NCBI GenBank assembly: GCA_001414325.1
Contig: LLKB01000005.1
Location: 1,001,285-1,065,284 of the forward strand
Direction: 5' to 3'
Length of the DNA stretch: 64,000 nt
From: Butyribacter intestini
GTDB lineage: Bacteria; Bacillota; Clostridia; Lachnospirales; Lachnospiraceae
This document shows positions 14,806 through 39,586 of this stretch, one piece after another. Made by a program: the position numbers and the translations under genes. The first letter of the stretch is position 1, and the number at the start of each line of letters is the position of its first letter. The notes beneath the pieces were generated by a model, which saw nothing but the letters and a program-made list of their open reading frames with translations, ran no database searches and was not told where the DNA came from.

Positions 14806-14876
14806 TGATTTACTCTTAGAATATCACATTTTGTTGCAATTTGCAAAAAAATATATCGGATTTTAGTCACTTTTTT

Positions 14877-15060
14877 GTAACAAGTTCAGCCATAAAAATA
14901 TAATCGTAATATCTGAGCTTGCTCATTGTATTGCTGATTATATTTTTATGGTAGAATAGCCTTTCATTTATTACATGAGGTAAACATAAGCTGCGTAGCA
15001 GCGACTGACATTTTACCGGCAGATTTATGAATGTAATAAATGGAAGGCTGAACTGTTATC
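14877..15060 (-). mobile_element. Family A foldback element (MITE), full 184-bp copy, reverse orientation
   Basis: Ends GTAACAAGTTCAGCC and GGCTGAACTGTTATC are flanked on both sides by the 8-bp target duplication ACTTTTTT (14869-14876 and 15061-15068). The two internal hairpins occur in reverse order relative to the copies at 27632 and 37986. No coding capacity. The GTAA end and 8-bp duplication resemble IS66-family insertion. Confidence 0.85.
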
Positions 15061-15134
15061 ACTTTTTTATAATTTTGATTTCCGTTGTCAAGTTGTCTAA
15101 AACAAATCGATTTGTTTGAAGCTGCAGCTATTTT

Positions 15135-17585
15135 CTACTGTTCCACTGATATGATTATCTTTTTCTCAGTTTCATCATAATCAACATTTACTTTCTCTCC
15201 CGCCTTAACTTCTCCTGCAAGAAGTTTATCTGCAAGAAGATCTTCTATCTCTGTCTGTATTGCTCTTCTTATAGGTCTTGCACCATAATTTTTGTCAAAT
15301 CCTTTGTCTGCAATATATTCTACTGCTTTCTCTGATACAGCAAGATTTATACGCATCTGTGCATTGGTTCTGCTGCTAAGGTTTCTGAGCAGTATTCTTA
15401 CTATCTCTTTGAGATTTTCTTTTGTGAGCATATGGAATACAAGTACTTCATCAATTCTGTTTATAAACTCAGGCTTGAAGATTTTCTTTACTTCATCCAT
15501 AACGCCCTCTTTCATCTTTTTGTAATCGGCTTCCTCACTGTCGTCAGTACCAAAACCAAGGCGGCTAGGCGATACTATACGCTGTGCACCTGCATTTGAA
15601 GTCATAATGATGATAGTATTCTTAAAACTTACCTTTCTTCCCTGTGCATCCGTAACATGACCATCTTCAAGTATTTGAAGAAGAATGTTAAATACATCAG
15701 GATGAGCCTTTTCGATTTCGTCAAAGAGTACGACTGAATAAGGATGTCTCCTCACTTTTTCGCTTAACTGACCACCCTCTTCATATCCTACATATCCCGG
15801 AGGTGAACCAATCATTTTTGAAACACTGTGTTTCTCCATATATTCGGACATATCAACTCTTATTATCTCATTTTCTTTTCCAAATACAGCTTCAGCAAGT
15901 GCCTTTGAAAGTTCCGTTTTTCCTACACCTGTTGGTCCTAAGAAAAGGAATGAGCCTATCGGTCTGTTCGGATCTTTAAGCCCTACCCTTCCTCGTCTCA
16001 CAGCTTTTGATACTGCTTCGATAGCTTCTTCCTGTCCGACTACTCTCTCATGAAGTATGCTCTCAAGTTTTTTTAGACGCTCTGTCTCTTCCTCCTGAAG
16101 CTTTTGAACCGGTATTTTTGTCCAGTCGGCGATAACCGCTGCCACATCATTTTCATCCACACATACTTCTTTTCTGTTTTTCTCTTTCTCTATGTCAGTG
16201 CGAAGTTTTTCAAGTCTTTTTTCTGCATCAGACTGCATTTTCTTTAGCTCTCCGGCATGGGCATAATCTTCATTTCTAATGGCATCCTCTTTTTCTTTTT
16301 CCCACCTTAATATATCTTCTTCAAGCTCACGGAGTTCAGGTGTTGAAAGGTATCTGCTAAGACTGACTCTAGCCCCCGCCTCGTCAATAACATCTATCGC
16401 CTTGTCAGGAAGAAATCTGTCATTTACATATCTCTCAGACATTTTTACTGCCGATACTATGGCACTGTCACTTATCTTTACTCCGTGGTGCTCCTCATAT
16501 CTTTCTTTAAGACCTGCAAGTATCGCAATAGTCTCCTCCGTGTCCGGCTCACTTACATCTACCGGCTGAAAACGGCGTTCTAAAGCTGCATCTTTTTCTA
16601 TATACTTGCGGTACTCGTCTAGCGTTGTTGCTCCGATAAGCTGAAGTTCACCTCTTGCAAGTGACGGCTTTAATATGTTTGCCGCATCAAGTGCACCCTC
16701 TGCACCACCTGCTCCGATAATAGTGTGTATCTCATCTATAAATAAAAGAATATTTCCCGACTGTGTAACTTCTCTTACAGCCCTTTTTATCCTCTCCTCA
16801 AACTCTCCTCTGTATTTTGAACCTGCGACCATTCCTGAAAGATCAAGTGTGAGCACCTTTTTGTCCTTAATAATATCAGGCACATCACCTACCGCAATCT
16901 TTTGTGCAAGTCCCTCAACCACTGCCGTCTTTCCGACACCCGGTTCTCCGACAAGACACGGATTGTTCTTTGTTCTTCTGCTAAGTATCTCTATAAGTCT
17001 TGTAATCTCTCTGTCCCTGCCTATGACCGGATCAAGTTTTCCGTCTTTTGCATACTCGGTAAGATTTCTGCTGTACTGGTCAAGCATCGGTGTTGCAGAT
17101 TTATTCCTTCTGCTTTTCTGCATCATATACTCATTTTTGGCACTGTTTACATCCTGCCCCGTCGCCGTAAGAAGATCCACATAGAGTTTCTGGACATTTA
17201 TCCCTCTCGTATTGAGAAGTCTTACTCCAAGACACTCCGTCTCTTTAAGCATTGCAATAAGGATATGCTCTGTTCCCGCCTGAGCTGAGCCTAATCTCTC
17301 CGCCTCGGTTATGCTGTTTTCAATAATCTTTCTGGCTCTTGGTGTATATTGCGGTCTTTCTGCCACCGCTACTCCCTCGCCTGTTTCAATCATTTCCTCT
17401 ATAAGAACCCTGAGTTTTTCTTCTTCCACTCCGTTCTCACGCATAACCTCTGCTGCAACACCCTTAGTTTTTACAAGTGCTATAAGCAGATGTTCAGTTC
17501 CAATATAACCGTGTCCAAATGATTTTGCGACACCCAACGAATTATCAAGTGCTTTTTGTGCACTTTTGGTAAATTTATTTCGCAT
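15135..17585 (-). CDS. clpC: ATP-dependent Clp protease ATP-binding subunit ClpC
   Basis: 816 residues. Duplicated Clp-N repeats (about 1-140), AAA1 with Walker A GEPGVGKTAV and LLFIDEIHT, a middle domain holding a UVR-like segment (EDYAHAGELKKMQSDAEKRL), then AAA2 with GPTGVGKTELSKALAEA. ClpC unfolds proteins for ClpP and is an AAA+ stress and development factor. AAGGAG precedes the ATG. In many Firmicutes it follows ctsR-mcsA-mcsB; those genes are absent here, so clpC appears to be monocistronic. Confidence 0.95.
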   Translation of the reverse strand: MRNKFTKSAQKALDNSLGVAKSFGHGYIGTEHLLIALVKTKGVAAEVMRENGVEEEKLRVLIEEMIETGEGVAVAERPQYTPRARKIIENSITEAERLGSAQAGTEHILIAMLKETECLGVRLLNTRGINVQKLYVDLLTATGQDVNSAKNEYMMQKSRRNKSATPMLDQYSRNLTEYAKDGKLDPVIGRDREITRLIEILSRRTKNNPCLVGEPGVGKTAVVEGLAQKIAVGDVPDIIKDKKVLTLDLSGMVAGSKYRGEFEERIKRAVREVTQSGNILLFIDEIHTIIGAGGAEGALDAANILKPSLARGELQLIGATTLDEYRKYIEKDAALERRFQPVDVSEPDTEETIAILAGLKERYEEHHGVKISDSAIVSAVKMSERYVNDRFLPDKAIDVIDEAGARVSLSRYLSTPELRELEEDILRWEKEKEDAIRNEDYAHAGELKKMQSDAEKRLEKLRTDIEKEKNRKEVCVDENDVAAVIADWTKIPVQKLQEEETERLKKLESILHERVVGQEEAIEAVSKAVRRGRVGLKDPNRPIGSFLFLGPTGVGKTELSKALAEAVFGKENEIIRVDMSEYMEKHSVSKMIGSPPGYVGYEEGGQLSEKVRRHPYSVVLFDEIEKAHPDVFNILLQILEDGHVTDAQGRKVSFKNTIIIMTSNAGAQRIVSPSRLGFGTDDSEEADYKKMKEGVMDEVKKIFKPEFINRIDEVLVFHMLTKENLKEIVRILLRNLSSRTNAQMRINLAVSEKAVEYIADKGFDKNYGARPIRRAIQTEIEDLLADKLLAGEVKAGEKVNVDYDETEKKIIISVEQ

Positions 17586-17619
17586 ACGCTCAAAACTCCT
17601 TCATTTTATTAGTCTGCCT

Positions 17620-17705
17620 GCAACAGCTAAGTCTTTAATTTCTTATATCCATAAATCTGTAACCAGGCTGTCAACCGCTGCTATACGGCTTTCTTATTTC
17701 ATAAT
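17620..17705. repeat. Decayed internal fragment of repeat family A
   Basis: The segment with TTTCTTATATCCATAAATCT, GCTGTCAACCGCTGCTA and TTATTTCATAA follows the internal left half of family A (compare 37999-38075) closely, but both ends are lost. It fills most of the clpC upstream spacer. Confidence 0.5.
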
Positions 17706-17713
17706 TTTTACTC

Positions 17714-19114
17714 TCATTCTCTATGCCAATAATGCGTAATGTTGTTACTTTTTTCCTCAAACGAATCCAAATCTGTTTTTTCGTTATTATCTCCCAACAT
17801 CTCTTTTTCTGATATATCTGTTCCTGATACATCTTTTTTTGACATACCATCTTTTAGACTGTCAAATTTCGGCATATTTTCACCATATGTGTGTTTTATC
17901 TTTCCCATATATTCTATTGTATCTGTGCTGTCAACAGTTCCGGCATTATCAATACCACCGGCACTGCCGTCTGAAATACCACCATATGCACTTATAATAT
18001 TATTATTCTGCCGATAATGCAAATATATTGTTATCATTCCTATAAACATCAACAGACATATGATAACCATTATTCCCACAATATATTTCATCGTCTTTAA
18101 TTTTGTTTCACTGACAGAATCTGAACCTACAACAGTATTTCCGATACTTTCTTTGTACCATGCTTTTACTTTATCATAGGGCATAAAGCTGTCATTTTCC
18201 GTATCATACAGATAAAACTCCGGCTCCTGTCTTCCGCATTTACAATATATAAGTACAAATTTATGCTCAAGATTATCTTCGGTGGCATATGCCGTTATGA
18301 CATGACCACTTAGAACTATCTCTGTTTTTCCAAACCCTGTCGGAATATCCTTGTCATTCTCTAGCGTAACAACCTTATATTCTTCATTATAATGAATGGT
18401 TATAACGCTGTTCTGATATGTTGCGGTCACACTCTTAACCGCATTTTTTGTAGTATTTTTTTTATCATCAGCGTTTATTTTTTTCTTTTTCGTTTTAGGT
18501 TTCGGACTTTCACTCGGCTTTATATCATCTTTCGCAGACTCATCATTATTTTTTTTGCCATCGTAAGGTTTTTCTGTCCCTGCCGGTTCTTTACCGTCAG
18601 GCTCTTTATTGTCATTTTTTTGGGGTGCATCCGCTTTTTTAGCACTCTTACTCTTAACCATTATATTAAGTGTGTCAGAAGATACTGACATCTTTGAAGA
18701 ATCTTCTGAATTATATACTGCATATGGCTGTTTTAATTCTATTGATGTACTGCCCTCTTTTCTCGCGACAAACTTAATGGAATATTTAAGACTGTTCACC
18801 CCGGTCTCCCTGCCTGTATCTTCTATTTGAAACCGGTTGTCATTGCCACTTGCAACACTCCCGCCTGTCATATACTGAAGGACCCTGCTGTCATAAGAAA
18901 AACTGCCCTCAAAGCCACTCATGGCATCAGATGAATTTATCGTGATTATCACATAAACTATATCCCCTTTTGAAACCTGACCGGATGATGCCCTTATCGA
19001 CACCTCAGCACTTGCCGCACTCACATTTACAGCTTTGGTATTTATGCATACCATTAAAAAAAATAATGCAAATGCAAACTTATAAAATATATTAGTTTTT
19101 CTTTCTTTTTTCAA
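17714..19114 (-). CDS. Cohesin-like, membrane-anchored surface protein
   Basis: 466 residues, with a TTG start six nt after AGGGGTG. A signal peptide (about 1-34) precedes a beta-sandwich of about 120 residues that resembles cohesin/CBM-type domains (SAEVSIRASSGQVSKGDIVY, FEGSFSYDSRVLQYMTGG). A Lys/Pro/Asp-rich linker, a second short beta region and one transmembrane helix near 340-365 (KYIVGIMVIICLLMFIGMI) follow, then an acidic cytoplasmic tail of about 100 residues. No dockerin partner is seen in the window. It is 35 nt after the SH3/glucosaminidase gene, so the two are probably one transcript acting at the cell wall. Confidence 0.75.
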   Translation of the reverse strand: MKKERKTNIFYKFAFALFFLMVCINTKAVNVSAASAEVSIRASSGQVSKGDIVYVIITINSSDAMSGFEGSFSYDSRVLQYMTGGSVASGNDNRFQIEDTGRETGVNSLKYSIKFVARKEGSTSIELKQPYAVYNSEDSSKMSVSSDTLNIMVKSKSAKKADAPQKNDNKEPDGKEPAGTEKPYDGKKNNDESAKDDIKPSESPKPKTKKKKINADDKKNTTKNAVKSVTATYQNSVITIHYNEEYKVVTLENDKDIPTGFGKTEIVLSGHVITAYATEDNLEHKFVLIYCKCGRQEPEFYLYDTENDSFMPYDKVKAWYKESIGNTVVGSDSVSETKLKTMKYIVGIMVIICLLMFIGMITIYLHYRQNNNIISAYGGISDGSAGGIDNAGTVDSTDTIEYMGKIKHTYGENMPKFDSLKDGMSKKDVSGTDISEKEMLGDNNEKTDLDSFEEKSNNITHYWHRE

Positions 19115-19149
19115 TCAAATCACCCCTGCCACCACTAATACAATATCAT

Positions 19150-21363
19150 CTATTTTCGTGTCACAACAATTTTGTATTTTCTTGTATTTCCGCTTTCAGA
19201 TTTCACTTTTACATAGAAAGTATTTGTCCCGACTTCAAGGCTCTTTATTCCTGTGCCTGTCATCGTCGAATGTTTGCTTACCTTTGAAGCACATATCTTT
19301 ACACTTGAAACACTGTTGTTCACCGTAAGTGTATATGTCTTTGTTCCGTTATCTCCAAGCACAAACTTACTGTCAAACGCATGATCTTTAATATAAAGCG
19401 TACTCAGATAATTGTTTGGATTCTTGCCACCGGACGGAACATCACATGCTTCCTCAGGCATATTATCATACACCGGTATTGAAAATACCATCGACATATT
19501 TTTGTCTATCACACCATAAGCCGCAACTGTTTTTGTCGCCTCATTGTTTGGTGCTTCTATATTTCCCATATACTGATGATTATACCTGTTTTTAGCTGTG
19601 ACATTAAATTTTTCAAGGTACAGAGTATTCTGTCCCATATTTATATAATTTTTTCCTATATACTGTGCACCGCCGACTAATGACTTGTATCTGTTATTCC
19701 ACGGGCGAAGATAGGTCTTTCCCGTTTTCGCCCATTTCAATCCGTTTGCCACTGCACCTCCGGCAACAACACTGTTATTTGCACCGATATTATAAAAATT
19801 GTATATTCCTTTATATCCGGATACAGTTCCAGATACCGAGCTGCTCATTTTATTCGCATTTATTACAACCTCCTGCTTCACTCGTGACGCAAGATGATAA
19901 GGACTTACCTTAGATTTTTTTGCAGCCGTCATAAATGTTTTTGAATATTTGACACTCACATTTTTGCCGCTGCTCTTATATGTATATTTTTTATTATACA
20001 TAGGTGTATTTTTTAAGATATTTTCAACACCCGACTGTGTCTGACTTCCCCTCTGATACTCAAGACTCTCAAACTGGAAAATTCCTCTTTCATCAAGGAA
20101 ATTTCGCGGATCCATATAATATTTTACCGCTTTTTTTGATGCCGTAACCCAGGTACTTCCATCGTATGGTATATACCTGTCCTTTGTCCAGTCATAAGCC
20201 TTTGCTTCTGTCGATTTCCACGCATATGACTTATTTATACTCAAAAGATTAAGCCCTACCTTTGACTCATTATTTATGACCGTAGACCATTTTAAACCGG
20301 TCTTATAAGGCTTAAACTCCCAACATGGATATTTCTCATGAAGTTTTACAAGTTCCGTTATATAATCATCCGGAAATCCTGCCTTTTTCAGATTTTTCTT
20401 AAATTCAGCATTAGTTTCAGGTGCAGCTGTCGGCTTTTCCGTCACTTTAGGTGCTGCCGTTGCATCAGGTTTCTTTGAAGGTTTAGCTGTCACTGTCGGT
20501 TTCTTTGTCACTGCAGGTTTTTTTGTTGCACTTGCACTTTTCCCTTTGATTATCTGAAAATATACATTGTCAGCCAAAATATACCCTGTATGTGTTATCT
20601 TTGCCGATATGAATTTCACCTTAAAATATCTTTTTGATGCGACCGTCCTTTCCCCTAAAATAACAAACTGGTCACCATTTTTTACAACTATTTCTCTGCC
20701 TGATGAATTGGTAATAACAATAGCCTTTCCCGGTGTTTTTAACATATTAAGATTTCTACTGCTCTTTGATATTCCCGGAAGTCCTGTCCCATATGAAACA
20801 TTCACATTTTCTGCTGCTATATATCCCTTATAAGATGTTCCCTCATATACAAATAAAGCATAATACCATCTTTTCACTCCGGATTTTTTTTCAATGTATA
20901 TTCTTACTTTTCTTTTTGAAGGAAGTGTGATTTTTTTGCCATCTTTTGTAAGATATTCCTTTTTTGCATTAAGATTTTTTCTTACATTTGTCTCAGAAGA
21001 CACATATCCTACTATTGAAGTATATGTTTTACCTGTTTTAAATTTTAAATATTTTTTATTTACATAACCGTTGAGATTTCTACTGTTTTGCGTAAATTTA
21101 ATATGATACCAGTCTCCATTTTTTTCAATAACGATAACCTTCTGTCCATTTGACAGCACAACTGATGTTCCGCCTGCCTGTAATTTAGCATAAGCTATCC
21201 CCGGTCCTTTTCGTACATTTAAATACCCGTTCACATTTACGACACCTATCGCATCTGCCTTAAGCTCTTTGTGACTCTTACCCAGATTCAAAAAAAGTAA
21301 AAAGCAAATAAATGTAACTGTAAAAAGTATATATTTTTTCTTTTTTAAAGGCTTTAAAGACAT
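19150..21363 (-). CDS. Secreted SH3-domain / N-acetylglucosaminidase cell-wall protein
   Basis: 737 residues with an N-terminal signal/anchor helix. Bacterial SH3 repeats occupy about 38-275 (GYLNVRKGPGIAYAKLQAGG is the clearest). A Thr/Lys/Pro linker (KKPTVTAKPSKKPDATAAP) leads to a mannosyl-glycoprotein endo-beta-N-acetylglucosaminidase-like domain (SKVSPYHLASRVKQEVVIN; YNFYNIGANNS) at about 330-620. The C-terminus is a cadherin-like beta-sandwich (LYIKDHAFDSKF through TRKYKIVVTRK). It probably cleaves peptidoglycan glycan strands during growth or separation. First gene of a two-gene unit. Confidence 0.85.
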   Translation of the reverse strand: MSLKPLKKKKYILFTVTFICFLLFLNLGKSHKELKADAIGVVNVNGYLNVRKGPGIAYAKLQAGGTSVVLSNGQKVIVIEKNGDWYHIKFTQNSRNLNGYVNKKYLKFKTGKTYTSIVGYVSSETNVRKNLNAKKEYLTKDGKKITLPSKRKVRIYIEKKSGVKRWYYALFVYEGTSYKGYIAAENVNVSYGTGLPGISKSSRNLNMLKTPGKAIVITNSSGREIVVKNGDQFVILGERTVASKRYFKVKFISAKITHTGYILADNVYFQIIKGKSASATKKPAVTKKPTVTAKPSKKPDATAAPKVTEKPTAAPETNAEFKKNLKKAGFPDDYITELVKLHEKYPCWEFKPYKTGLKWSTVINNESKVGLNLLSINKSYAWKSTEAKAYDWTKDRYIPYDGSTWVTASKKAVKYYMDPRNFLDERGIFQFESLEYQRGSQTQSGVENILKNTPMYNKKYTYKSSGKNVSVKYSKTFMTAAKKSKVSPYHLASRVKQEVVINANKMSSSVSGTVSGYKGIYNFYNIGANNSVVAGGAVANGLKWAKTGKTYLRPWNNRYKSLVGGAQYIGKNYINMGQNTLYLEKFNVTAKNRYNHQYMGNIEAPNNEATKTVAAYGVIDKNMSMVFSIPVYDNMPEEACDVPSGGKNPNNYLSTLYIKDHAFDSKFVLGDNGTKTYTLTVNNSVSSVKICASKVSKHSTMTGTGIKSLEVGTNTFYVKVKSESGNTRKYKIVVTRK

Positions 21364-21492
21364 CTGAACATTATCTCCTTAATCTACGCTGTATATCTCT
21401 CAGTCGTTTCATGTATCTCATAATCATTATCTGCTTGATTATCACAATACTTTTAATATATTTTTTCTGCCTGTTTGCTTAATCTAAAACAG

Positions 21493-22371
21493 TTATTTTA
21501 TAAACTCTTTCAACTGCTCCGTATCAAATTTATAATGTGAGCCGCAGAACTGACAATTAACTTCTACCGGCTTACCGTCATCTATCATTTCCTGCAGTTC
21601 TTTTTTTCCCAGACTTGCTATAACCTTTGATACCCGCTCGAACGAACAGTCACATTTATACTGCGTAGGTACAGTTTCAAGTATCTCCACATCCATTCCC
21701 TCAAGTACATAATTCAAAATATCCTCAGGAGTCATGCCCTTATCAAGCATCTCTGTAACAGAATGAACTTCGCCAAGTCTTGCCTCCAGCTTGTCAATAA
21801 CCTCATCATCTGTGTCCGGCATAACCTGAATTATAAAACCTCCTGCCTGACGCACATGATTATCCTTATCCATAAGAACTCCAAGACCCACCGAAGACGG
21901 AACCTGCTCAGATGTTGCAAAATAATATGTCAGGTCTTCTGCTATCTCACCTGATACAAGATGTGTCTGTCCATTGTAAGGCTCTCTAAGACCTATATCT
22001 TTTATAACATTTAAAAATCCCGGTCCGAGTGCACCCGAAACATCAAGCTTTCCCTGTGCATTTGGAGGAAGTATAACATTCGGATTGTTTACATATCCCT
22101 TTACATCTGCGTTTGAGTCAGCCGTAACAGTTATGCCGCCGATAGGACCACCACATTCTATCTGAAGTGTGAGCACATCTTTTTCACCTTTCATCATACT
22201 TCCCATCATTGAAGCTGCCGTAAGAAGTCTGCCGATAGCCGCTGTTGCAACCGGGCTTGTGTTATGTATTTCCCTTGCTTTCTCAACAATATCCTTACTC
22301 GTAACCGCAAACGCTCTAAGCTGATGGTCTGCCGCTGTTGCCCTAACTATATAATCTTTATATTCACTCAT
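21493..22371 (-). CDS. hslO: Redox-regulated chaperone Hsp33
   Basis: 292 residues, full length. The N-terminal domain has DYIVRATAADHQLRAFAV and the C-terminal redox zinc site has CDC (in QYKCDCSFERV) and CQFC, the four cysteines that release zinc and form disulfides under oxidative stress to switch on chaperone holdase activity. A GGAG ribosome site precedes the ATG. Confidence 0.95.
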   Translation of the reverse strand: MSEYKDYIVRATAADHQLRAFAVTSKDIVEKAREIHNTSPVATAAIGRLLTAASMMGSMMKGEKDVLTLQIECGGPIGGITVTADSNADVKGYVNNPNVILPPNAQGKLDVSGALGPGFLNVIKDIGLREPYNGQTHLVSGEIAEDLTYYFATSEQVPSSVGLGVLMDKDNHVRQAGGFIIQVMPDTDDEVIDKLEARLGEVHSVTEMLDKGMTPEDILNYVLEGMDVEILETVPTQYKCDCSFERVSKVIASLGKKELQEMIDDGKPVEVNCQFCGSHYKFDTEQLKEFIK

Positions 22372-22500
22372 TTTTAATCTCCGTTTCTGATGATATTTTT
22401 GAACTTTTTAATCAGTAGTATCCATTTATATTTATCTGTAACTGGTGAACAATAAAATGATATTTGTCAATACAATAAGCTCATTCATTGTATTATTAGT

Positions 22501-22599
22501 GTAACAGTTCAGCCTTTCATTTCTTACATTCATAAACCAGCCAGCAAGCTGTCAGTCGCTGCTTTGCAGCTTTTGTTTATTTCATGGCTGAACTGTTAC
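22501..22599. mobile_element. Short 99-bp family A foldback element with target duplication
   Basis: GTAACAGTTCAGCC (22501-22514) and GGCTGAACTGTTAC (22586-22599) bound only the left internal half of family A. TTATTAGT occurs on both sides (22493-22500 and 22600-22607), a perfect 8-bp duplication. The flank at 22470-22490 also contains an AATACAAT / ATTGTATT hairpin like that of the missing right half. Confidence 0.85.
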
Positions 22600-22614
22600 T
22601 TATTAGTTCTCATT

Positions 22615-23493: not shown

Positions 23494-23546
23494 AATATAC
23501 CTCATTTTCTGTGTTTTTCATAGAGTTTTTCTTACTTAATCATTAA

Positions 23547-23660
23547 TCAAACGGCATTTCTTTTCATATTCTTCCAAAAATCCCTGCCAATGACAGTTAT
23601 TCCATCCAGTTCAATATCGGCACGATTTATCAGACCTATGTTACTTACAGATATTTTCAT
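23547..23660 (-). pseudogene. Truncated N-terminus of an AAA/SMC-like ATPase
   Basis: A 37-codon frame begins MKISVSNIGLINRADIELDG and continues ITVIGRDFWKNMKRNAV before a stop. The first 25 residues match the start of ABC/SMC-like AAA ATPases, in which ITVI is followed by a GxNGSGKS P-loop. Here the P-loop is missing, so this looks like a deletion remnant of a larger, possibly defence-related ATPase. The inverted repeat at 23683-23840 lies immediately upstream. Confidence 0.5.
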
Positions 23661-23682
23661 AATTCACTCCTATCCTATATTA

Positions 23683-23840
23683 TGTACTCTCGGAATCTTC
23701 TGAACGAAGAATTTCGAGATGGATTTTTGATATACAATGACATTTTCGCAGTGCGTACACGGTGTGTACGACGGGAAAAGGGAAACAGAATATCGGAAAT
23801 GCAGCCGAAATGACTCGTTTTGAGAAGATACCGAGAGTAC
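23683..23840. repeat. 158-bp inverted-repeat element
   Basis: TGTACTCTCGGAATCTTCT (23683-23701) pairs with AGAAGATACCGAGAGTACA (23822-23840), 18 of 19 positions. The loop carries CGTACAC-GGT-GTGTACG. No coding potential. It may be a MITE or the edge of the deleted ATPase locus. Confidence 0.65.
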
Positions 23841-23955
23841 ATTATTAGTTCACATAATCAGATATATTATAATTGACTCAAATATAATCGTCAATCACCT
23901 TTACTTTTCCTACCGCTTAGTATTCTACGCACTGGAAGTGTGGAAATACTCATTC

Positions 23956-24546: not shown

Positions 24547-24584
24547 AAGCATATCTCCTCTCCACTTTTTATCTCCCACTAAGC

Positions 24585-27631: not shown

Positions 27632-27815
27632 GTAACAGTTCAGCCTTTCATTTATTACATTCATAAAACTGCCAGCGAGCTGTCAGTCGCTGCTTTGCAG
27701 CTTATGTTTATCTCATATAATAAATGAAAGGCTATTCTACCATAAAAAGGTACTTAACAATACAATGAACAAGCTCATTGTATTGCCAATTATCTTTTTA
27801 TGGCTGAACTGTTAC
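27632..27815 (+). mobile_element. Family A foldback element (MITE), full 184-bp copy
   Basis: GTAACAGTTCAGCC (27632-27645) and GGCTGAACTGTTAC (27802-27815) are exact 14-bp inverted repeats. Flanks CCACAGCG and CCACAACG are an 8-bp target duplication with one mismatch. Inside, AGCCTTTCATTTATTA pairs with TAATAAATGAAAGGCT, and a second hairpin pairs CCATAAAAAG / CTTTTTATGG around CAATACAATGA / TCATTGTATTG. The surrounding 27474-28010 holds the uvrA promoter and otherwise nothing. Confidence 0.88.
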
Positions 27816-29939: not shown

Positions 29940-29965
29940 ATCTTGTCAGTATCTATCCTGCATCG

Positions 29966-30045
29966 TAACAGTCAGATATTGCATTTCTTATATTATGAAA
30001 CCTGCTATCCATTGCAATGCAGCTTTTGTCTACTTCATCTTAGAA
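29966..30045. repeat. Decayed family A copy
   Basis: GTAACAGTCAGATATTGC, TTTCTTATATTATGAAACCT and GCAGCTTTTGTCTACTTCAT parallel the left half of family A, but the right end is unrecognisable. Confidence 0.5.
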
Positions 30046-30054
30046 TAAAATAAC

Positions 30055-30107: not shown

Positions 30108-30109
30108 GC

Positions 30110-32197
30110 TTAAATACTGTTATTAACATATTCTCTTATTTCATTGTCGTCCTCCGGCATCTGGCATCCCACTATGAACACACCTTCATTCTCAGAGCAC
30201 CTGATGACTTTACCTTCGAGAACATTATGCTTTGGAAGATCAAAATCTTCTATGGTTATCTTAATCTTTGCTCCTTTGTTTTCCTTAAAATAAGACTCTT
30301 TCGTGAGCAATGCAAAACCATTTGCACTTATATTGTCAAGTTGTCCATCAATCTCTTTTCCGGTCTCTTCAACAAATATCTTACACTTATTGCTTATATC
30401 CATACGAGGATACTTTCTGCGGTTCTTTATCTTCGGTCTTGATGTCACGAGTATCTCAAATAAATGTGAATTTTGTGAAGCTGACGAAACAACTTTCGCA
30501 TCTTTCCATATATATAATACATTTCCAACCGTAATCTGCATCCTGCATAATCTATCCTTTGCCAAATCGCTATTTAATTTAGGAAGATTTACTTCTATCC
30601 TGTCGTCTTTCTGCTTTTCAACTTCACCATGATATACTTCTGCCGATGCACCATCCATCGTTATCTGGACTTTCATTCCCGGCATAATATCTTCAACTCC
30701 CATAAAACCACCAATACCAAGTTCACACATAAGAGCTTCAACTGTTTTTTCAATATCATTAATATTTGTCATGGACTCTTCATATTTACTAAGCATACGG
30801 CTGCTCATCTCGTTTGAATATGATATACATCCCGTCATATCGGAAACAATTCCGGATACACTATCCATGTTATCCACAAGCTGATGATTTGAGTTTTCAA
30901 CCTCTTTCATTGCAATATCAATTTCCTGAATATGACTTTCAAGCTGTTTTGAATCATTATTTATCTTGCCAACATTTTTCCCGGTCTTTGTAACTTTCTT
31001 GTATGTTTCCTGAACAAGATTTATCGTCTCCTCCATAGAAGCCGTCATCTTGTCTGATGTTTCCTGAAGCCTTATAAGTGCATCCTCTATCATTCCTGAT
31101 GATGACTGTGTTTCTGTACTTAATGAACTTATCTGCTGTGCAACTACTCCAAAACCTCTTCCTGCTTCACCTGCTCTTGCTGCTTCTATAGAAGCGTTTA
31201 ATGCAAGCAATGTTGTCTGTTCAGTTATTTCTTCAATTTTGCCTGTTTCAGCCTTAACTCTTTCAAACTCTTCCCTGAAATTTTCAAGAATCTGTCCCAT
31301 ATCAGATGCCAGATCTGTCATAGCATGAGTAGTCTCCACAAGACTCTCAAGATCTGTCGAACTTGTCTTTGCGTGTTCTGTTGACTCTGCTGTCAGGCTG
31401 ACCATCTGCTCTATCATTTCTGCCACGCGTTCTACCTGCGAACTTATGTCAGTTGTCATTTCCACCGATGAATCGGTTGTATTTTCAAGCTTTGTGTTAT
31501 TATCTGTCAATGTAACCATTCCATCGGCAACAACACCTGCACTATGTGTATTTTCAACTGAAATCTCTCTTACAACGGAAACCCCGCTCATAATAGAGTT
31601 ACTTGCCTTTTTAACTTTCTCTACAGTAGTTATAACTCGTTTAAGGTCAGCCTTTATACTGTTTGTCATTGCACCATCTGATTCGTTAAGATGATGTATC
31701 GACATGACATAACATATATAACAAAGCACTGTAGCTGAAAATTCAAGCTGGTAATTTTTCATATCTGCTGCCGAATTGTAACCACCCATTACATGATATA
31801 CAGAACTTATAATGATTATTATAGAATTGACAATTCCACAATATATCATAAATTTACGGTTCTTATACAATACCAAAAGACTTGTCACCGGCAATACATA
31901 TGTAAATGCTATAGGTGACTCAGTCGTACTTATAACAAAAGTATAAAAAATCCCATATCCGACAACAAGGTCATATTTATACAAATCCGTTTCCCAGCCT
32001 TTTTTTCTAAGCAATATCTCGCCAGCTATTATCGGAATCCAGCAAAGTGCCAGAAATACAAAATAATATGATGCGGTATTTAATCCTTTAGATACATCCG
32101 AACCATAATTTGCTGAAAGAAGTATCGCAAAAACAAACCATATACGCCTTGCTTTTCTGTTTGCTTTTTCTTTAAATTCATTTTCATTATAATCCAT
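30110..32197 (-). CDS. Methyl-accepting chemotaxis protein with C-terminal PilZ domain
   Basis: 695 residues. The N-terminus has about six hydrophobic helices (20-180) and no large extracellular loop. The MCP signalling hairpin peaks at [20 protein letters not shown] and [13 protein letters not shown]. At about 590-690 a PilZ domain reads [13 protein letters not shown] (the R-x-x-x-R arm) and [10 protein letters not shown] (the D/N-x-S-x-x-G motif), so it should bind c-di-GMP. No HAMP domain is evident. It couples c-di-GMP level, perhaps from the neighbouring cyclase, to chemotaxis signalling. Confidence 0.9.
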
Positions 32198-32308
32198 AAC
32201 AGCTTTACCTCCGTATATTATAACTGTTCGGATAATTGCAAAATCAATGTTAAATTTTATTCACTCTATAAGAACAACAAATAATTAGTTTTCAATTTTA
32301 TCCTCAAA

Positions 32309-33217
32309 CTATACAATGATTCGTGCAAAATAATCCGACATTCTTTTCATCGTTTCATAACTTTCCGCCAAATCAGGTTCAAAAACACTGAATGCGTGTG
32401 TTAGTTTTTTATCTTTTTTAAAATATAACAATTCACTTTTTGTATTTACCGGTTTCAGTGCTTTATAAAAATTGAGTGTATATTTTCTAAGATTGTCACC
32501 TCTGCTTGATACAAGAAAACATGGCGGCAAGGCTTTAAGCAGCTCTTTATTTTCCGGATTTACATACTTAGCAAATGCACTCTTTTTATAATCTTTTCCA
32601 TAAAGATATTTCGGAAGAAACAATCCTAATTTATCAAATTTATTTGTATAAAACATTCCACTTATAAGTCCCATTGCCTTTATGTCTATTTGAGCCGGTT
32701 TTACTTTTGCCCCATTTGCCATACCGGCACATTTCATCATCGCAGCAGTGTATGTGAGCAGACACGCCCCTCCACTGTCTCCTGCTGCAAATATCCTTTC
32801 TGCATCTCCATTATAATTTGAAAGATTATCGTTTATAAAATCTAATGCTCTTGACAAATCTTCACACTGGTCATAAAACATACAGTCAGGCACAAGTCTG
32901 TATTCCACACTGAATACAATATATCCGAGTTTACACAGTTTGGCACAAAAATATCTGTTAAACTCCTTATTTCCAAGAATAAGTCCACCTCCATGTACAT
33001 TTATTATGACTGGAAGCTTTCTATGCTCCTGCTCCGGTGTTATAATTTTAGACTTGTAGACATCAAGATGGTGTGCTTTTAATCCATCTTTAAGATATGG
33101 AATATCTCTGATTTCTTCAACATCATCCGGAAATTTAAGCCTTTTGTCTCTTTCTTTTTGTTCTTCTAAGAAGTCTGCTCTTTGCTTATAAAATACATTT
33201 GCAATAGTCTGCCCCAT
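32309..33217 (-). CDS. Alpha/beta hydrolase (HSL/GDXG esterase family)
   Basis: 302 residues, cytosolic. The oxyanion motif is INVHGGGLILGNKE, the nucleophile serine is in AAGDSGGACLLTY, the Asp probably in VSSRGDNLRKY, and the His in LTHAFSVF. This is the hormone-sensitive-lipase-like layout of short-chain esterases/deacetylases. The substrate is unknown; a carbohydrate-ester role is conceivable given nearby glycosidases. Confidence 0.85.
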   Translation of the reverse strand: MGQTIANVFYKQRADFLEEQKERDKRLKFPDDVEEIRDIPYLKDGLKAHHLDVYKSKIITPEQEHRKLPVIINVHGGGLILGNKEFNRYFCAKLCKLGYIVFSVEYRLVPDCMFYDQCEDLSRALDFINDNLSNYNGDAERIFAAGDSGGACLLTYTAAMMKCAGMANGAKVKPAQIDIKAMGLISGMFYTNKFDKLGLFLPKYLYGKDYKKSAFAKYVNPENKELLKALPPCFLVSSRGDNLRKYTLNFYKALKPVNTKSELLYFKKDKKLTHAFSVFEPDLAESYETMKRMSDYFARIIV

Positions 33218-33274
33218 TTTTTCCTCATTTCCTTTTTTAATTATGTAAATATAAAACTTTTATGTATATTATTA

Positions 33275-33305
33275 AGAGGGTGTCACTCTTTCGTGACATC
33301 CCTCT
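33275..33305 (-). terminator. Terminator after the ABC importer genes
   Basis: AGAGGGTGTCAC / GTGACATCCCTCT form a strong stem with one bulge and a 6-nt loop just past the stop at 33314. Confidence 0.65.
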
Positions 33306-33313
33306 GTTGAAAC

Positions 33314-34108
33314 CTATCCTAACAACGCCTTGTCATTTGAAAACTCCTCACCGCTCACTTCCTCAAATTTCTGAAGAAGATCTTCGACAGTAAGTTTTTT
33401 CTTCTCCTCGCCTTTTATATCAAGAATAACCTTTCCTTCATTCATCATAATAAGGCGGTTTCCGTGTATTATCGCATCTCTCATATTATGTGTTACCATC
33501 ATAGCAGTAAGATGATTGTCAGCGATAATCTTATCTGATAATTCCAGCACTTTTGCTGCGGTCTTTGGATCGAGTGCCGCCGTATGCTCATCTAAAAGAA
33601 GAAGCTTAGGCTTTTTAATCGTTGCCATAAGAAGTGTAAGTGCCTGTCTCTGACCGCCCGAAAGAAGTCCGACTTTTGATGTCATTCTATCTTCAAGACC
33701 AAGATCAAGTTTTGCAAGCATTTCTCTGTATTTTTTCTTCTCAGACTTAGTAACGCCCCACTTAAGACCTCTGCGCTGTCCTCTTCTTGCCGCAAGAGCA
33801 AGATTTTCTATAATTTCCATTGTCGCCGCTGTCCCGTTCATCGGATCCTGGAATACCCTGCCAAGATAAGGTGCTCTCTTATGCTCTGAAAGACCTGTCA
33901 TATCAACTCCGTCAATAATAATACTTCCCGAATCTATAGGCCATACACCTGCAACAGCATTTAGAGTGGTAGATTTTCCTGCTCCGTTTCCACCGATAAC
34001 GGTAACAAAATCTCCATCCTCAAGTTTTAAATTGACACCATTTAATGCCTTCTTTTCGTTTATAGTACCAAGATTAAATGTTTTATACACATTGTTTAAC
34101 TCTAACAT
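33314..34108 (-). CDS. ABC transporter ATP-binding protein (PF04392-associated type)
   Basis: 264 residues. Walker A GGNGAGKSTT, signature LLSGGQRQALTLLMA and Walker B KLLLLDEHTAALDP. The companion permease overlaps it by a few bases. This pair belongs to the branched-chain-like importers normally paired with an ABC_sub_bind (PF04392) lipoprotein; TrpXYZ is a characterised relative. The substrate is unproven. Confidence 0.88.
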   Translation of the reverse strand: MLELNNVYKTFNLGTINEKKALNGVNLKLEDGDFVTVIGGNGAGKSTTLNAVAGVWPIDSGSIIIDGVDMTGLSEHKRAPYLGRVFQDPMNGTAATMEIIENLALAARRGQRRGLKWGVTKSEKKKYREMLAKLDLGLEDRMTSKVGLLSGGQRQALTLLMATIKKPKLLLLDEHTAALDPKTAAKVLELSDKIIADNHLTAMMVTHNMRDAIIHGNRLIMMNEGKVILDIKGEEKKKLTVEDLLQKFEEVSGEEFSNDKALLG

Positions 34109-35058
34109 TTTCCGGCACCTCCTTTTGCGGCTTTTCTGTATGAATTTTTAGCCTTTCCCCTGAGGTAAGGAACTGCAAGGAATATCGCAACTACCATAGC
34201 TGAGAACATCTTCATATCTATTGTAGGAAGACCGAGCCACAATACAAACTGGATAACTATGTAGTAAATTATACTTCCGACAGCAACAAATGCAAGTCTT
34301 CCGCTGAAATTGAGTTTCTTTCCGAATATAGCTTCTCCAAGTACCTCACCGATGATAACAGAAGCAAGTCCGATAACGATAGAACCCCTGCCCATGTTTA
34401 CATCGAAGTTACCCTGATACTGTGAGAGAAGTCCGCCTGCAAATCCAACAAGACCATTTGAAAATACAAGTGCAAGTACCTTTGCAACATTTGTGTTGAT
34501 TCCCTGTGCCCTTGACATATTTGGATTGCATCCTGTTGCCCTGATAGTGAAACCAAGCTCTGTTCCAAAGAACCAGTACATAAGTGCGATAACGACCAAA
34601 AGTATGATAACGACCGTAACTATCGCGGCAGGATTGTCTCTGCCTGAAACAACGAGTTTATACATATCTACATTTACAGCCTGATTTGCTTTTCCTTCAG
34701 ATATGTTCAGATTTATCGAATATAATGAAAGCTGTGTAAGAATACCTGCCAAAATATCCGGAATACCGAGTACCGTATGTAAGATACCCGTTATAAGTCC
34801 GGCAAGCATACCCGCAACAAATGCAACTGCAACTGCTGCAAGCGGATTCCATCCTTTCAATATAAGCATTACCGTAACAACACCACCGGTTGCCATAGTA
34901 CCATCAACCGTAAGATCGGCAAAATCAAGTATTTTAAATGTTAAAAACACTCCTATCGCCATAATTCCCCAGATAAGACCCTGGGCTACAGAACCAGGCA
35001 GTGCACGAACAAGTGCTGTGATATCCTGTGCACATACCACTGGAATTAAACTGTACAT
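34102..35058 (-). CDS. ABC transporter permease (BPD_transp_2 type)
   Basis: 318 residues with about eight transmembrane segments (VAQGLIWGIMAIGVFLTFKI; GFAGGLLSQYQGNFDVNMGR). The start has GGAGGAAAAA upstream. The gene for a substrate-binding lipoprotein, which usually precedes this permease, is absent. Promoter and palindrome lie upstream. Confidence 0.88.
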   Translation of the reverse strand: MYSLIPVVCAQDITALVRALPGSVAQGLIWGIMAIGVFLTFKILDFADLTVDGTMATGGVVTVMLILKGWNPLAAVAVAFVAGMLAGLITGILHTVLGIPDILAGILTQLSLYSINLNISEGKANQAVNVDMYKLVVSGRDNPAAIVTVVIILLVVIALMYWFFGTELGFTIRATGCNPNMSRAQGINTNVAKVLALVFSNGLVGFAGGLLSQYQGNFDVNMGRGSIVIGLASVIIGEVLGEAIFGKKLNFSGRLAFVAVGSIIYYIVIQFVLWLGLPTIDMKMFSAMVVAIFLAVPYLRGKAKNSYRKAAKGGAGKC

Positions 35059-35105
35059 TTTTTCCTCCGTTCCGCCGTTTTTACATCCGGCACTTTATTC
35101 CGTCC

Positions 35106-35191
35106 GGGGTATTTTTATAACCCCACAAACACCTCCAATGTTATTGTCAGTGTTTGTTGTGTCAAGCAATTTGTATGTAAACATACATTGC
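35106..35191 (-). promoter_or_regulatory. Importer promoter, upstream palindrome and leader hairpin
   Basis: On the minus strand TTGACA (35165-35160), 16 bp, TAACAT (35143-35138). Just upstream, an imperfect palindrome centred on TGTATGT-AA-ACATACA (35172-35187) is flanked by GCAA/TTGC. In the leader GGGGT/ACCCC (35106-35124) forms a hairpin. The rest of 35192-35351 is AT-rich without a gene. Confidence 0.5.
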
Positions 35192-35351
35192 TATATATTT
35201 TTAATCCTTTCATCACATTATATTATAATTATAATTATAAAAGCAATGAAAATATATAAATAACGGACAACTTTTTTGCTGTGTAGTTATTGCTATCCTA
35301 TTTTGCGGCAGCAATACAATATAATTATTGTGAGAAACTACCGCACACTCT

Positions 35352-35621
35352 CTACTCATCAGTCTTTTTTATGGTATCACCCGTAGATATTTTCGTATTT
35401 TTGTCAACTCCGCCTATACTGCTGCCGCCGACATAATAATCTTTCTGTGGCTTTGGTGATACCGTTTCATTGACGCCTGCACTGTAGGCACTCTCAAGTC
35501 CCCATTTGCCATGCCTTTCCACCACAAAATAATGTATGACTATTGCAGCCGCAATAACTGTCACAACTGCTATGACGGTTTTTCTTCCACTGCCGTGCAT
35601 CCAGTCTCTTATCTTTCCCAT
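35352..35621 (-). CDS. Small single-pass membrane protein after GH13 gene
   Basis: 89 residues. A positively charged start (MGKIRDWMHGSGRKT) leads into one transmembrane helix (VIAVVTVIAAAIVIHYF, about 16-32), then a polar outer segment rich in Gly/Thr/Lys. Not recognised. It starts 7 nt after the GH13 stop and is probably cotranscribed. Confidence 0.6.
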   Translation of the reverse strand: MGKIRDWMHGSGRKTVIAVVTVIAAAIVIHYFVVERHGKWGLESAYSAGVNETVSPKPQKDYYVGGSSIGGVDKNTKISTGDTIKKTDE

Positions 35622-35628
35622 ATCTCAT

Positions 35629-37776
35629 CTATCCCATGCTTTCTATATCTTTTATTATCATTCCCGACATCGGAGGACATTCAACATGGATAAGTCCATT
35701 TACGACCGGATATACCTTTGCTTCATCTGAATAACCTTCCCTGTCACTAAGCATCAGTCTTGCCATTCGTGTCTCCTGTATAATTCCCATTCGCCATACC
35801 GGTATGTCAGCTTCACGAACCTCATCGCTGCTGTTTATCATAACAACTATCTTATCATTTTCATCAAATCGTCCATAACCTATAAGTTTATACTGACCTT
35901 TTAAGAACATTATCGAGCCGGTCTTAAACACCTGATAATCCTTGTGTATCCTTATAAGCTGTCTGTGGAACTCTATAAGTTCATTGTCCTCTCTGCCCCA
36001 TGGATAAGTTCTTCTGTTATCCGGGTCAGTCCAACCGCAAAGTCCTGCCTCATCGCCATAATATATAGTCGGTGCTCCCGGCCATGTCATCTGTATCATG
36101 ACACCAAGCCTGAAAAGAGCCTTATCTATGCCCTCATCTGCCGCCTGAGGTCCTACACTTGCCGTTCTTCCGACTTTGTGATTTGTTCTCGTCATAAATC
36201 TTGAATGATCGTGATTTGAAAGTTCATTCATGGCAACCTGAAGCGACTGTGTATTAAATCTTGTCATATAATTTCGCATAGAACCGAAAAACGCATCAGC
36301 ATTACCAAGAAGATCTTCCCTGTACTCATCACTGTGCTTTTCTACACCTGTCAAAAACCATGTGATAGGTTCCATAAACGCATCGTAGTTCATAACGGTA
36401 TCCCACTGGTCACCTTGAAGCCAGCTTGTCGGATCACCATAATGCTCTGCAAGAACGATAGCTTCAGGATTTGCTTCCTTGACATTTCTTCTAAACTCTT
36501 TCCAGAAATAGTGATTGTACTCCTGTGACTGACCAAGATCTGCCGCCACATCAAGTCTCCAGCCGTCAACATTGTACGGCGGTGAAACCCATTTTCTCGC
36601 TATATGCATGATATAGTCAAATAAAAGCGGTGAATCTTCATAATTTAACTTAGGTAGTGTATCGTGTCCCCACCAGCCATCATAGTGATAATTGTACGGC
36701 CACATATCTTCATTAAACCTGAAGAAAGTCCTGTAAGGACTGTCTGCGGATATATAAGCTCCTTTTTCATAACCCTCGGCATCCTCATAAATGCACTCTC
36801 TGTCAAGCCATTTATTGAAAGAACCACAGTGATTGAAAACTCCGTCGAGAATAACTTTCATGCCCCTTTTGTGAACTTCCTCGACAAACTCAGCAAAAAA
36901 ACGGTTGCTCGCCTCAAGGTTTTCTTTGTCTGTAACCCTGCACACATATTTTGTTGCATATTTGTTTGGGTAAGTACCGTCACACATGAGATTTCCATTT
37001 TCGTCCCTGTGAAGCACTTCACCCTCATCTTTAACTATCTTTCCGAAATGAGGATCTATATAATCATAATCCTGAATATCATATTTGTGATTTGACGGTG
37101 ATACAAAAATCGGATTAAAATATATCGCATCTACACCAAGTTCCTGCAGATAATCAAGTTTCTGCCATACTCCTGCTATATCTCCGCCGTAAAATTCCCT
37201 TACCCCCATTGCTGCCGGATACTTAAACCAGTCAGTAACCTTGTCTGTACCCTCACCTATATAGACATACTCATCTTTTTCAACATCATTTGACCTGTCA
37301 CCGTTATAAAAACGGTCAACATATATCTGATAAAATATTGCACCCTTTGCCCAGTCAGGAGTGTGAAATGATGGTGTTATCGTAAAATTATAATACGGCT
37401 CAACTCCGCTGCACACACCTACGCTGTTGTAATAGACAGTGACCGTTCCGCTCGTCACCTCAAAATAATAATCTATCATCTTGTCAGAAAGTTCGACCAT
37501 ACTCTCATAATAATCAAACAGTCTGTCATTATATACTTTCTTCATCTCGATGCGCGTATCAGTACACACAACAAGAACCACTCTGTCAATATTTTCCCTG
37601 CCGGTTCTGAATCTGAGCTTTACACTCTCATTTGCTTTTGGTTCAGGCGGAATACGATACTGTGCCGTACCATCACTAAAAAGAGCCTGTGGGTTAAATA
37701 TCGTTGTAAGATTGTCGATAAAAAGCTGTGTCTTCATAGCTTTTGTCATCTTCGCAAGCCTTACATTTAAATCCAT
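35629..37776 (-). CDS. GH13 alpha-glycosidase (neopullulanase/cyclomaltodextrinase-like)
   Basis: 715 residues from the ATG at 37776, with GGGG seven nt upstream; an ATG four codons earlier is possible. No signal peptide, so intracellular. An N-terminal CBM34-like domain (about 1-150), then the (beta/alpha)8 barrel: YFNPIFVSPSNHKYD, VILDGVFNHCG, GWRLDVAADLG (nucleophile Asp), AIVLAEHYGD (acid/base Glu), MNELSNHDHSRF (third Asp). This matches the GH13_20 group that hydrolyses imported maltooligosaccharides, cyclodextrins or pullulan fragments. Confidence 0.9.
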   Translation of the reverse strand: MDLNVRLAKMTKAMKTQLFIDNLTTIFNPQALFSDGTAQYRIPPEPKANESVKLRFRTGRENIDRVVLVVCTDTRIEMKKVYNDRLFDYYESMVELSDKMIDYYFEVTSGTVTVYYNSVGVCSGVEPYYNFTITPSFHTPDWAKGAIFYQIYVDRFYNGDRSNDVEKDEYVYIGEGTDKVTDWFKYPAAMGVREFYGGDIAGVWQKLDYLQELGVDAIYFNPIFVSPSNHKYDIQDYDYIDPHFGKIVKDEGEVLHRDENGNLMCDGTYPNKYATKYVCRVTDKENLEASNRFFAEFVEEVHKRGMKVILDGVFNHCGSFNKWLDRECIYEDAEGYEKGAYISADSPYRTFFRFNEDMWPYNYHYDGWWGHDTLPKLNYEDSPLLFDYIMHIARKWVSPPYNVDGWRLDVAADLGQSQEYNHYFWKEFRRNVKEANPEAIVLAEHYGDPTSWLQGDQWDTVMNYDAFMEPITWFLTGVEKHSDEYREDLLGNADAFFGSMRNYMTRFNTQSLQVAMNELSNHDHSRFMTRTNHKVGRTASVGPQAADEGIDKALFRLGVMIQMTWPGAPTIYYGDEAGLCGWTDPDNRRTYPWGREDNELIEFHRQLIRIHKDYQVFKTGSIMFLKGQYKLIGYGRFDENDKIVVMINSSDEVREADIPVWRMGIIQETRMARLMLSDREGYSDEAKVYPVVNGLIHVECPPMSGMIIKDIESMG

Positions 37777-37985
37777 AATAATCCCCATTTCCGAGCAATT
37801 TATTTATAATACTATTTATCTTTGCTCCAAAATAAATAGAAGTAGTGAAACTAACTTAATACTTATGCCACATCATAAGTTATCATTATCCCTTACAATG
37901 TAACAGGTGCTAAACACATTTACAGTTATTTTACTATAAATCTTCGTTCTCCTCAACATTTTTATTGCCGTTCTCACATTTTAGA

Positions 37986-38169
37986 GTAACAGTTCAGCCT
38001 TTCATTTCTTACATTCATAAACCTGCCAGCGAGCTGTCAGTCGCTGCTTTGCAGCTTTTGTTTATTTCATTTCAGAAATGAAAGGCTATTCTACCATAAA
38101 AAGGTACTTAACAATACAATGAACAAGCTCATTGTATTGCCAATTATCTTTTTATGGCTGAACTGTTAC
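37986..38169 (+). mobile_element. Family A foldback element (MITE) inserted in the cca 3' end
   Basis: 184 bp with exact GTAACAGTTCAGCC / GGCTGAACTGTTAC ends and the perfect 8-bp duplication ATTTTAGA (37978-37985 and 38170-38177). It supplies the present last codons and stop of cca. The rest of 37789-37985 holds the former cca 3' end and the GH13 upstream region. Confidence 0.92.
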
Positions 38170-39586
38170 ATTTTAGATAATTTAACAGACCATCTTTCGT
38201 GTTCAGTTCAGGTTCATCAAGTACCTTGTCGAGCATTGCCTTAAGTATCTCTCCCATCTTTGGTCCCGGTTTTACTCCGGCGGCTATAAGGTCTGAACCT
38301 GTCACCGCAAGGTCTTTTATCGACAAAGGCTGTGCATTTGCCATAATATATTCAAATCTCTTAACACCTGCGTCTATCTTTGCAAGTTTTTCATCACGCT
38401 GCATATCGCTCTGTGCCAGAACATCGGCATACTCAACAAGAAAAAGCATATCCATAATGTCAGCACCTATCTTTGACACGGCACGCCTGAAAGCCCTGCT
38501 CTTATCTTCCATACGGTAATCATGAAATCTTATGAGCCTGCACGCTTTTGATATAGAGTCATTGTCAAAAGTAAGCCTTCTCATTATCTTCTTTGCCATT
38601 TTCTCACTCTGTGCCGGATGACCGATAAAGTGACCGATTCCTTTTTCATCGACTGTCATGACTGCTGGTTTTGCTATATCGTGAAGAAGCATCGTCATGC
38701 ACAAAACCGTCTGCTGTTTTTTATCCATTTTAGCGGCAAGTTTTTTTGCCGTTTCAAGTACATTCTCAGGTATCTTATCATAAATCTTTTCATCAGAAGT
38801 AATCCCAAAGAAACAGTTCATAAGCTCTATACCGCATATGCTGTGTTCTCCGACCGTGTAGATATGATGCGGATTTTTCTGTTCAGTTTGCATCGCAGCA
38901 TCAAGTTCAGGCAGAAAATATTTTGTCATGCCTGTTTTATATGCATCCCTTATCCGCCCTGCTTCTTTAGAAACAAGCAGTTTCGTAAGTTCAACTCTTA
39001 TCCTCTCGGCACTTATATTTTTAAGATGGTCTGCTCTCTCAACGATAGCTTCTCTTGTCTTTTCCTCGATGGCAAAACCAAGCTGTCCTGCAAACCTCAC
39101 TGCCCTTAACATCCTGAGTGCGTCCTCGTCAAATCTCTGACCCGCATCACCAACACATCTTATTATACCATCTTTGAGGTCTTTAATACCCCCAAATTCG
39201 TCGACAAGCCCTCTATTATCGTTATAAGCCATGGCATTTATCGTAAAATCGCGTCTTTCAAGGTCAAGTTTGAGATTGTCTGTAAACTCTACTTTTTTAG
39301 GATGCCTGTTATCCTCATATTCACCGTCTATCCTGTAAGTTGTCACCTCATAACCGACATGGTCAAGCATGACAGTGACCGTGCCATGCTGTATCCCCGT
39401 GTCGATAGTCTTTTTAAAAAGCTCCTTTATCTGTAAAGGTTTTGCGGAGGTCGTAATATCCCAGTCCTGCGGTTTTCTGTCAAGCAGAGTGTCCCTCACA
39501 CAGCCGCCTACCGCATAGGCTTCAAATCCTGCCTGTTCAAGTTTACTAATAATATATGAAACATTTTTAGGTAATATCATCTTCAA
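38144..39586 (-). CDS. cca: CCA tRNA nucleotidyltransferase with HD domain
   Basis: 480 residues. YAVGGCVRDTLLDRKPQDWD gives the polymerase-beta-type GG and DxD-like motif, RRDFTINAMAYN the next, then the RNA-binding head and an HD domain (LLHDIAKPAVM; HPAQSEKMAKKIM). It adds or repairs the 3'-CCA of tRNA. GAGGTG lies 8 nt upstream of TTG 39586 and 14 nt upstream of ATG 39580, so the TTG is preferred. The last residues CNSSAIKR and the stop come partly from a family A insertion. Confidence 0.92.
   Translation of the reverse strand: MKMILPKNVSYIISKLEQAGFEAYAVGGCVRDTLLDRKPQDWDITTSAKPLQIKELFKKTIDTGIQHGTVTVMLDHVGYEVTTYRIDGEYEDNRHPKKVEFTDNLKLDLERRDFTINAMAYNDNRGLVDEFGGIKDLKDGIIRCVGDAGQRFDEDALRMLRAVRFAGQLGFAIEEKTREAIVERADHLKNISAERIRVELTKLLVSKEAGRIRDAYKTGMTKYFLPELDAAMQTEQKNPHHIYTVGEHSICGIELMNCFFGITSDEKIYDKIPENVLETAKKLAAKMDKKQQTVLCMTMLLHDIAKPAVMTVDEKGIGHFIGHPAQSEKMAKKIMRRLTFDNDSISKACRLIRFHDYRMEDKSRAFRRAVSKIGADIMDMLFLVEYADVLAQSDMQRDEKLAKIDAGVKRFEYIMANAQPLSIKDLAVTGSDLIAAGVKPGPKMGEILKAMLDKVLDEPELNTKDGLLNYLKCNSSAIKR

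Follow-up and report, generated by a model that had tools for sequence, protein, structure and literature searches.

Two members of the IS66 family are described with 8-bp target repeats (PMC3281130), and classical IS66 ends begin GTAAGCG..., as in GTAAGCGTCCGG... of ISPa75/ISPsko1 (PMC12888890). In the ISBst12 group of the family, ISDge4 combines the ends GTGACTACTCAGCA and GTAACTGCTCAGCA with a single ORF of 449 aa and an 8-bp repeat, and the same article calls IS66 transposases insufficiently characterised (PMC12898284). Bacterial miniature inverted-repeat elements (MITEs) with known parents include MITECca01, which is paired with IS982 (PMC9769881), and MITEPsy1, which is paired with the IS5-family element ISPsy2 (PMC3189936). 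The available sections of the literature on IS66 MITEs and ISBst12 describe no IS66-driven MITE. The sequence GTAACAGTTCAG was not found in the literature matched by end sequence, where the matches appear unrelated from their titles and the openings of their abstracts.

The window analysed here, a 64,000-nt stretch of the Butyribacter intestini genome, contains three full copies of a 184-bp element at 14877..15060 (- strand), 27632..27815 (+) and 37986..38169 (+). Direct reading of the sequence bears out these positions, which had been given in a first-pass annotation, together with the 8-bp duplications and shared inverted ends that it had described. The duplications are ACTTTTTT for copy 1 (8/8; left repeat 14869..14876, right counterpart 15061-15068), CCACAGCG/CCACAACG for copy 2 (7/8) and ATTTTAGA for copy 3 (8/8). 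The 14-bp inverted ends GTAACAGTTCAGCC are perfect in copies 2 and 3, while each end of copy 1 carries a 1-nt insertion. Allowing up to two mismatches, this 14-mer is found 11 times in the window, compared with a mean of 0.30 and a maximum of 2 in shuffled sequences (n = 100). The elements are MITE-like in being short (184 bp), having terminal inverted repeats and lacking a transposase gene. Copy 3 has an identical twin elsewhere in the genome (C5:1279961-1280144). It also runs 26 nt into the 3′ end of ORF 38144-39586 (-), which matches CCA tRNA nucleotidyltransferase (NF009814, 324.6 bits against a cut-off of 290); the stop and last residues of this ORF are therefore MITE sequence.

Shorter relatives accompany the full copies. 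A 99-bp deletion form that retains both ends (22501..22599, +) is flanked by the duplication TTATTAGT (8/8) and had previously been overlooked, and what had been taken for a solo end at 14768 is part of a 38-bp two-ended remnant (14768..14805, +; duplication 6/8). Decayed copies had been proposed at 17620 and 29966, and both are real but weak: the former (17615..17714, +) is 63% identical to the reference stretch 22496-22595, and the latter (29965..30045, +) consists of an end at 67% (29965-30003) and an internal part (30013-30045). Two further solo ends, placed by the same annotation at 1919 and 62588, are present as 14-mer matches, one an exact GTAACAGTTCAGCC with its subterminal sequence (1919..1957, +) and the other with one mismatch (62576..62601, -). 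The window also holds a 36-base tandem array at 41415-41761, in which the reference unit recurs as seven overlapping copies, and a 143-nt direct repeat (6927-7069 and 7111-7253, 99% identical, spacing 184 bases) that is, as far as seen, unrelated to the 184-bp element.

Further copies, which the first-pass annotation had proposed to look for, are found across the genome. A DNA search in which 40 of 223 candidates were scored gave 40 near-full-length matches; they are 90-100% identical and, bar one or two terminal bases, cover at least 182 of the 184 positions. Counting ends with no more than one mismatch gives 256 (135 forward and 121 reverse), against 0 + 1 for a reversed-pattern control. When 842,299 bp were scanned, or 23% of the genome, 35 elements with both ends were recovered, of which 25 measure 180-189 bp, together with 28 solo ends that have no more than one mismatch. 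The window copy at 14877-15060 is absent from these 35 because its ends have indels. Extrapolation from this part, which includes the window, gives an estimate of ~150 two-ended elements for the whole genome. With ORFs called by a crude greedy rule, 34 of these 35 fall outside them even though 83.6% of the 842 kb is ORF, and the remaining one sits in a 435-nt ORF.

The copies duplicate their target at a single length of 8 bp, a further MITE-like trait of a multi-copy family. Of the 30 genome copies with the best scores, 24 show 7-8 of 8 flanking bases duplicated, compared with 1 of 870 pairings of mismatched left and right flanks. Duplication is perfect at k=8 only (14/30 copies), with zero at k=6, 7, 9 and 10, and the left 8 bases are 76% A+T. 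The other six copies fall under 7/8 (6, 2, 6, 5, 3 and 5 of 8) and are counted against a trans-acting IS66 explanation. In the 842,299-bp scan, whose rule partly selects for duplication, 24 of the 35 two-ended elements have duplications of 7-8/8.

The route to a matching transposase was a listing of the exact 14-mer in 28 low-copy genomes. Contigs of one of these (G041) break at the ends, another (G328) carries a 4.2-kb unit, and ORFs in G328 and G393 are IS66-like pieces. In G041, contigs C11, C15, C36, C44, C52, C60, C61 and C75 start or stop at most ~22 bases from GTAACAGTTCAGCCTTCCGGCT, which is what an unassembled multi-copy element would be expected to produce. With the 355-aa G393 protein as query, the named genomes yielded 32 loci, 26 of which were examined; L378, L379, L402, L405, L408 and L409, cut by contig ends, were left out. 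At 17 of the 26, GTAACAGTTCAGCC forms both ends without a mismatch, which matches the MITE to an autonomous element in other genomes. Fourteen of these 17, all 1812-1835 bp long, have 8/8 duplications, so that 14 of the 26 loci pair the GTAA start with the 8-bp duplication of IS66. Their hosts are Sporofaciens musculi WCA-9-b2 (6), Lachnospiraceae bacterium 3-2 (5) and, with one each, A77_70.CF.DSS, B67_67_LP_H and Blautia sp. S10_Bin4. The three exact-end loci without a perfect duplication (L384, L386 and L392) have 3, 1 and 3 of 8, and in the other nine of the 26 the ends are altered, one-sided or unrecognisable. The first-pass annotation had suggested an IS66-type transposase acting in trans and a search for an IS66 element with matching ends; these elements, found in the same bacterial family, support its suggestion.

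The S. musculi transposase (L380) is encoded by a single ORF of 555 aa, with remaining ORFs of at most 84 aa. It matches PF03050 (DDE_Tnp_IS66) at 68.9 bits against a cut-off of 23.1, and also DUF6444. Three proteins miss the NCBIfam IS66 equivalog cut-off of 180, scoring 136.6 (S. musculi), 147.8 and 142.7 bits. The D, D and E residues align with the resident canonical IS66 of the window's genome, and columns D321, D372 and E498 are invariant in 4 sequences. A single ORF in place of tnpA/tnpB, as in the ISBst12 group, is seen in L380; the copies inspected for this trait were L380 and L342. We call this transposase clade ISBst12-like because of the published end, the single ORF of the inspected copy and the 8-bp repeat. 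Within the same genus, G005 encodes a protein with 75% identity between ends GTAACAGTTCAGTC/GTAACAGTTCAGCC with no duplication, and G003 has a 53%-identical protein (L343) with ends GTTACTATTCAG and a 7/8 duplication. The ends of MITE and matching IS have only ~14 bp in common, which counts against movement in trans. No MITE of this kind was found in the sequence flanking the 32 named IS loci, so the IS and its matching MITE have yet to be seen together in one genome.

We consider it very probable that the repeats are non-autonomous MITEs that were moved in trans, with 8-bp duplication of the target, by an IS66-family (ISBst12-like) transposase whose source element was not detected in this genome. 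A transposase of the matching clade would bind the 14-bp ends in trans and join them to a target whose two strands are cut 8 bases apart, and the gaps would be filled by the host's repair. The source element would then have been lost from the genome, or would never have settled there, leaving orphaned copies that degenerate through point changes, internal deletions and the loss of an end.

A candidate mover closer to hand is the resident canonical IS66, which shares the family name, the GTAA start and the genome with the MITEs. The genome has three PF03050 matches, namely an intact transposase (546 aa, C1:62647-63507), one with two stops and a fragment. The resident end, however, reads GTAAGCGCAAAAAACTCAGG (by eye, three copies), and the MITE end (at most two mismatches) is absent both from resident loci L031 and L033 and from 29 IS66 loci of other genomes (L043-L071), among which ends such as GTAAGCGTCAAATA, GTAACCGTCAAATAAC and GTAAGTAGG... 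were found. At the third resident locus, L032, the sole MITE ends within two mismatches are those of a neighbouring 255-bp MITE. This variant (L032:33-287) has an extra hairpin in its body and lies ~1 kb from a decayed canonical IS66. Movement by the resident enzyme is accordingly very unlikely. No autonomous partner was found in the same genome: the 842,299 bp (23% of the genome) scanned for long elements contain no two-ended unit above 255 bp, a repeated-gene self-comparison of that stretch gave no candidate transposase with GTAACAGTTCAGCC ends, and the window's genome, some stretches of which read N and may conceal a copy, gave no homologue of the matching transposase at E<=0.001. With different resident ends and no such homologue the copies look orphaned, and it is from relatives that we infer the trans-acting source. 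A mover from another family, IS4 or other, appears equally improbable. It is brought to mind by G294, where a 1843-bp unit has perfect ends around an IS4-family transposase. There (L223:1099-2700), the IS4-family element sits inside a ~230-bp element with GTAACAGTTCAGCC ends and is bounded by separate ends, CAATGCCATTAAGTTAAG, and by a separate ~9-bp duplication within the MITE; we rejected it as the autonomous partner, since it is a nested insertion. The window's genome has no homologue of this IS4 transposase.

The fold of the elements bears on a different proposal, that they are structured regulatory or RNA repeats that were duplicated rather than transposed. Copy 3 folds on either strand as a closing stem and two hairpins, in agreement with the two internal hairpins of the first-pass annotation, and the folds are very stable (RNA z -11.73 and -10.05; DNA z -10.91). 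The fold is alike in five elements from four genomes. The intergenic placement would also suit such repeats, as would the internal core conserved between species: over 33 nt, L002 and L035 differ at one position (manual count), while ends and stems differ. Site-specific 8-bp duplications speak against this proposal. Covariation among the genome's own copies is also low, with double changes in 3 of 59 pairs and a covariation term of 0.1, and the Rfam scan matched no family to the elements. Its one match in the window is a SAM riboswitch elsewhere, at 44253-44348 (-) (RF00162, 67.1 bits, gathering threshold 44.4). We regard duplication as RNA repeats as a slim prospect beside transposition by an ISBst12-like enzyme in trans.

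Across the family Lachnospiraceae, 82 of the 397 genomes sampled, and 71 of 334 genera, contain the exact 14-mer, with one match for the reversed control, and 30 of the 397 have a transposase match of any strength. At least 120 stretches of viral contigs also match the 14-mer, one match each, and are left out of these counts. In four of the 397 (G393, G328, G341 and G043) the transposase match extends beyond 50 residues at 50% identity or higher, and all four carry the 14-mer; a 51%-identity fragment of 41 residues in G286, which is without the 14-mer, counts against the association. Five of the six other genomes richest in the 14-mer (G056, G101, G310, G368 and G198) have no transposase homologue. 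That 14-mer-rich genomes are mostly without a transposase match would fit a source that has been lost, or draft assemblies in which an element of many copies has collapsed. At 9 places in 8 other genomes there are micro-elements of 28-46 bp whose two ends almost abut and which have 7-8/8 duplications; this list, picked by duplication, comprises L231:1014-1041, L238:990-1017 and seven more loci, and its members may be either mobile units or remnants of deletion. In G302, a 28-bp form doubles as the left end of a 136-bp element. Slippage between direct repeats after insertion may explain this form, and we do not propose that a 28-bp unit can transpose. For gut Lachnospiraceae, a mini-element family of high copy number gains a concrete candidate enzyme, for which the genomes that carry the 14-bp end provide a natural substrate set.

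In sister species, the two-hairpin body and its core recur between other ends, and those ends match other IS66 elements. One genome (G011) has five exact pairs of GTAACAGTTCAGCC ends and three elements with GTTACAGTTCACAC ends, all of them with the core; 0 of its 8 element pairs has a 7/8 duplication, which counts against IS66 acting in trans. G005 and G027 have GTTACTATTCACGG elements in which the core is recognised by eye (L037 and L038). Three fetched GTTACTATTCACGG pairs have duplications of 8, 7 and 5 of 8, and the core of the third escaped a stricter motif rule; 5 of the 15 stretches in this sister-species fetch yielded no pair. The core is absent from every IS locus scanned (at most 6 mismatches in 25). 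The ends GTAACAGTTCAGCC, GTTACAGTTCACAC and GTTACTATTCACGG each resemble those of a different IS66 subgroup, with transposases ~27-30% identical to the first. Among 20 divergent IS66 loci, four have 7-8/8 duplications. These four are L362 in G321 (ends GTTACAGTTCACACCC, protein 28% identical to the query), L363 in G350 (ends GTTACCATTCACGGGG, 27%), L351 in G131 (ends GTTACTGTTCAC/GTTACTGTTCAG) and L343 in G003, described above.

These bodies can be read as having been carried between end types, and the plain alternative is common descent with ends that slowly diverge. It is conceivable, though we think it rather doubtful, that the foldback body with its ~33-nt core is durable and the ends exchangeable, the core being under selection while the body switches transposase. 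A host factor might then recognise the core, or the core might act as an RNA or DNA structure. If the body truly swaps ends, this would be a mini-transposon that outlives its transposase by moving to another.

Compared with described systems, the elements come close to the ISBst12 group, in which GTAACTGCTCAGCA of ISDge4 is identical to GTAACAGTTCAGCC of the window at 11 of 14 positions and the single ORF and 8-bp repeat recur in the published description (PMC12898284). The window elements, however, are gene-less, and the Lachnospiraceae transposases form a divergent branch under the NCBIfam IS66 cut-off. Classical three-ORF IS66 elements share the GTAA start and 8-bp repeats (PMC12888890, PMC3281130) but differ in the sequence past GTAA, and the inspected matching IS has one long ORF. 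MITECca01 and MITEPsy1 are likewise short, multi-copy and gene-less with IS-like ends (PMC9769881, PMC3189936). Their parents belong to other families, whereas no parent of the window elements was detected in the genome. The window family is further set apart from both by a conserved internal body that is common to families with different ends.
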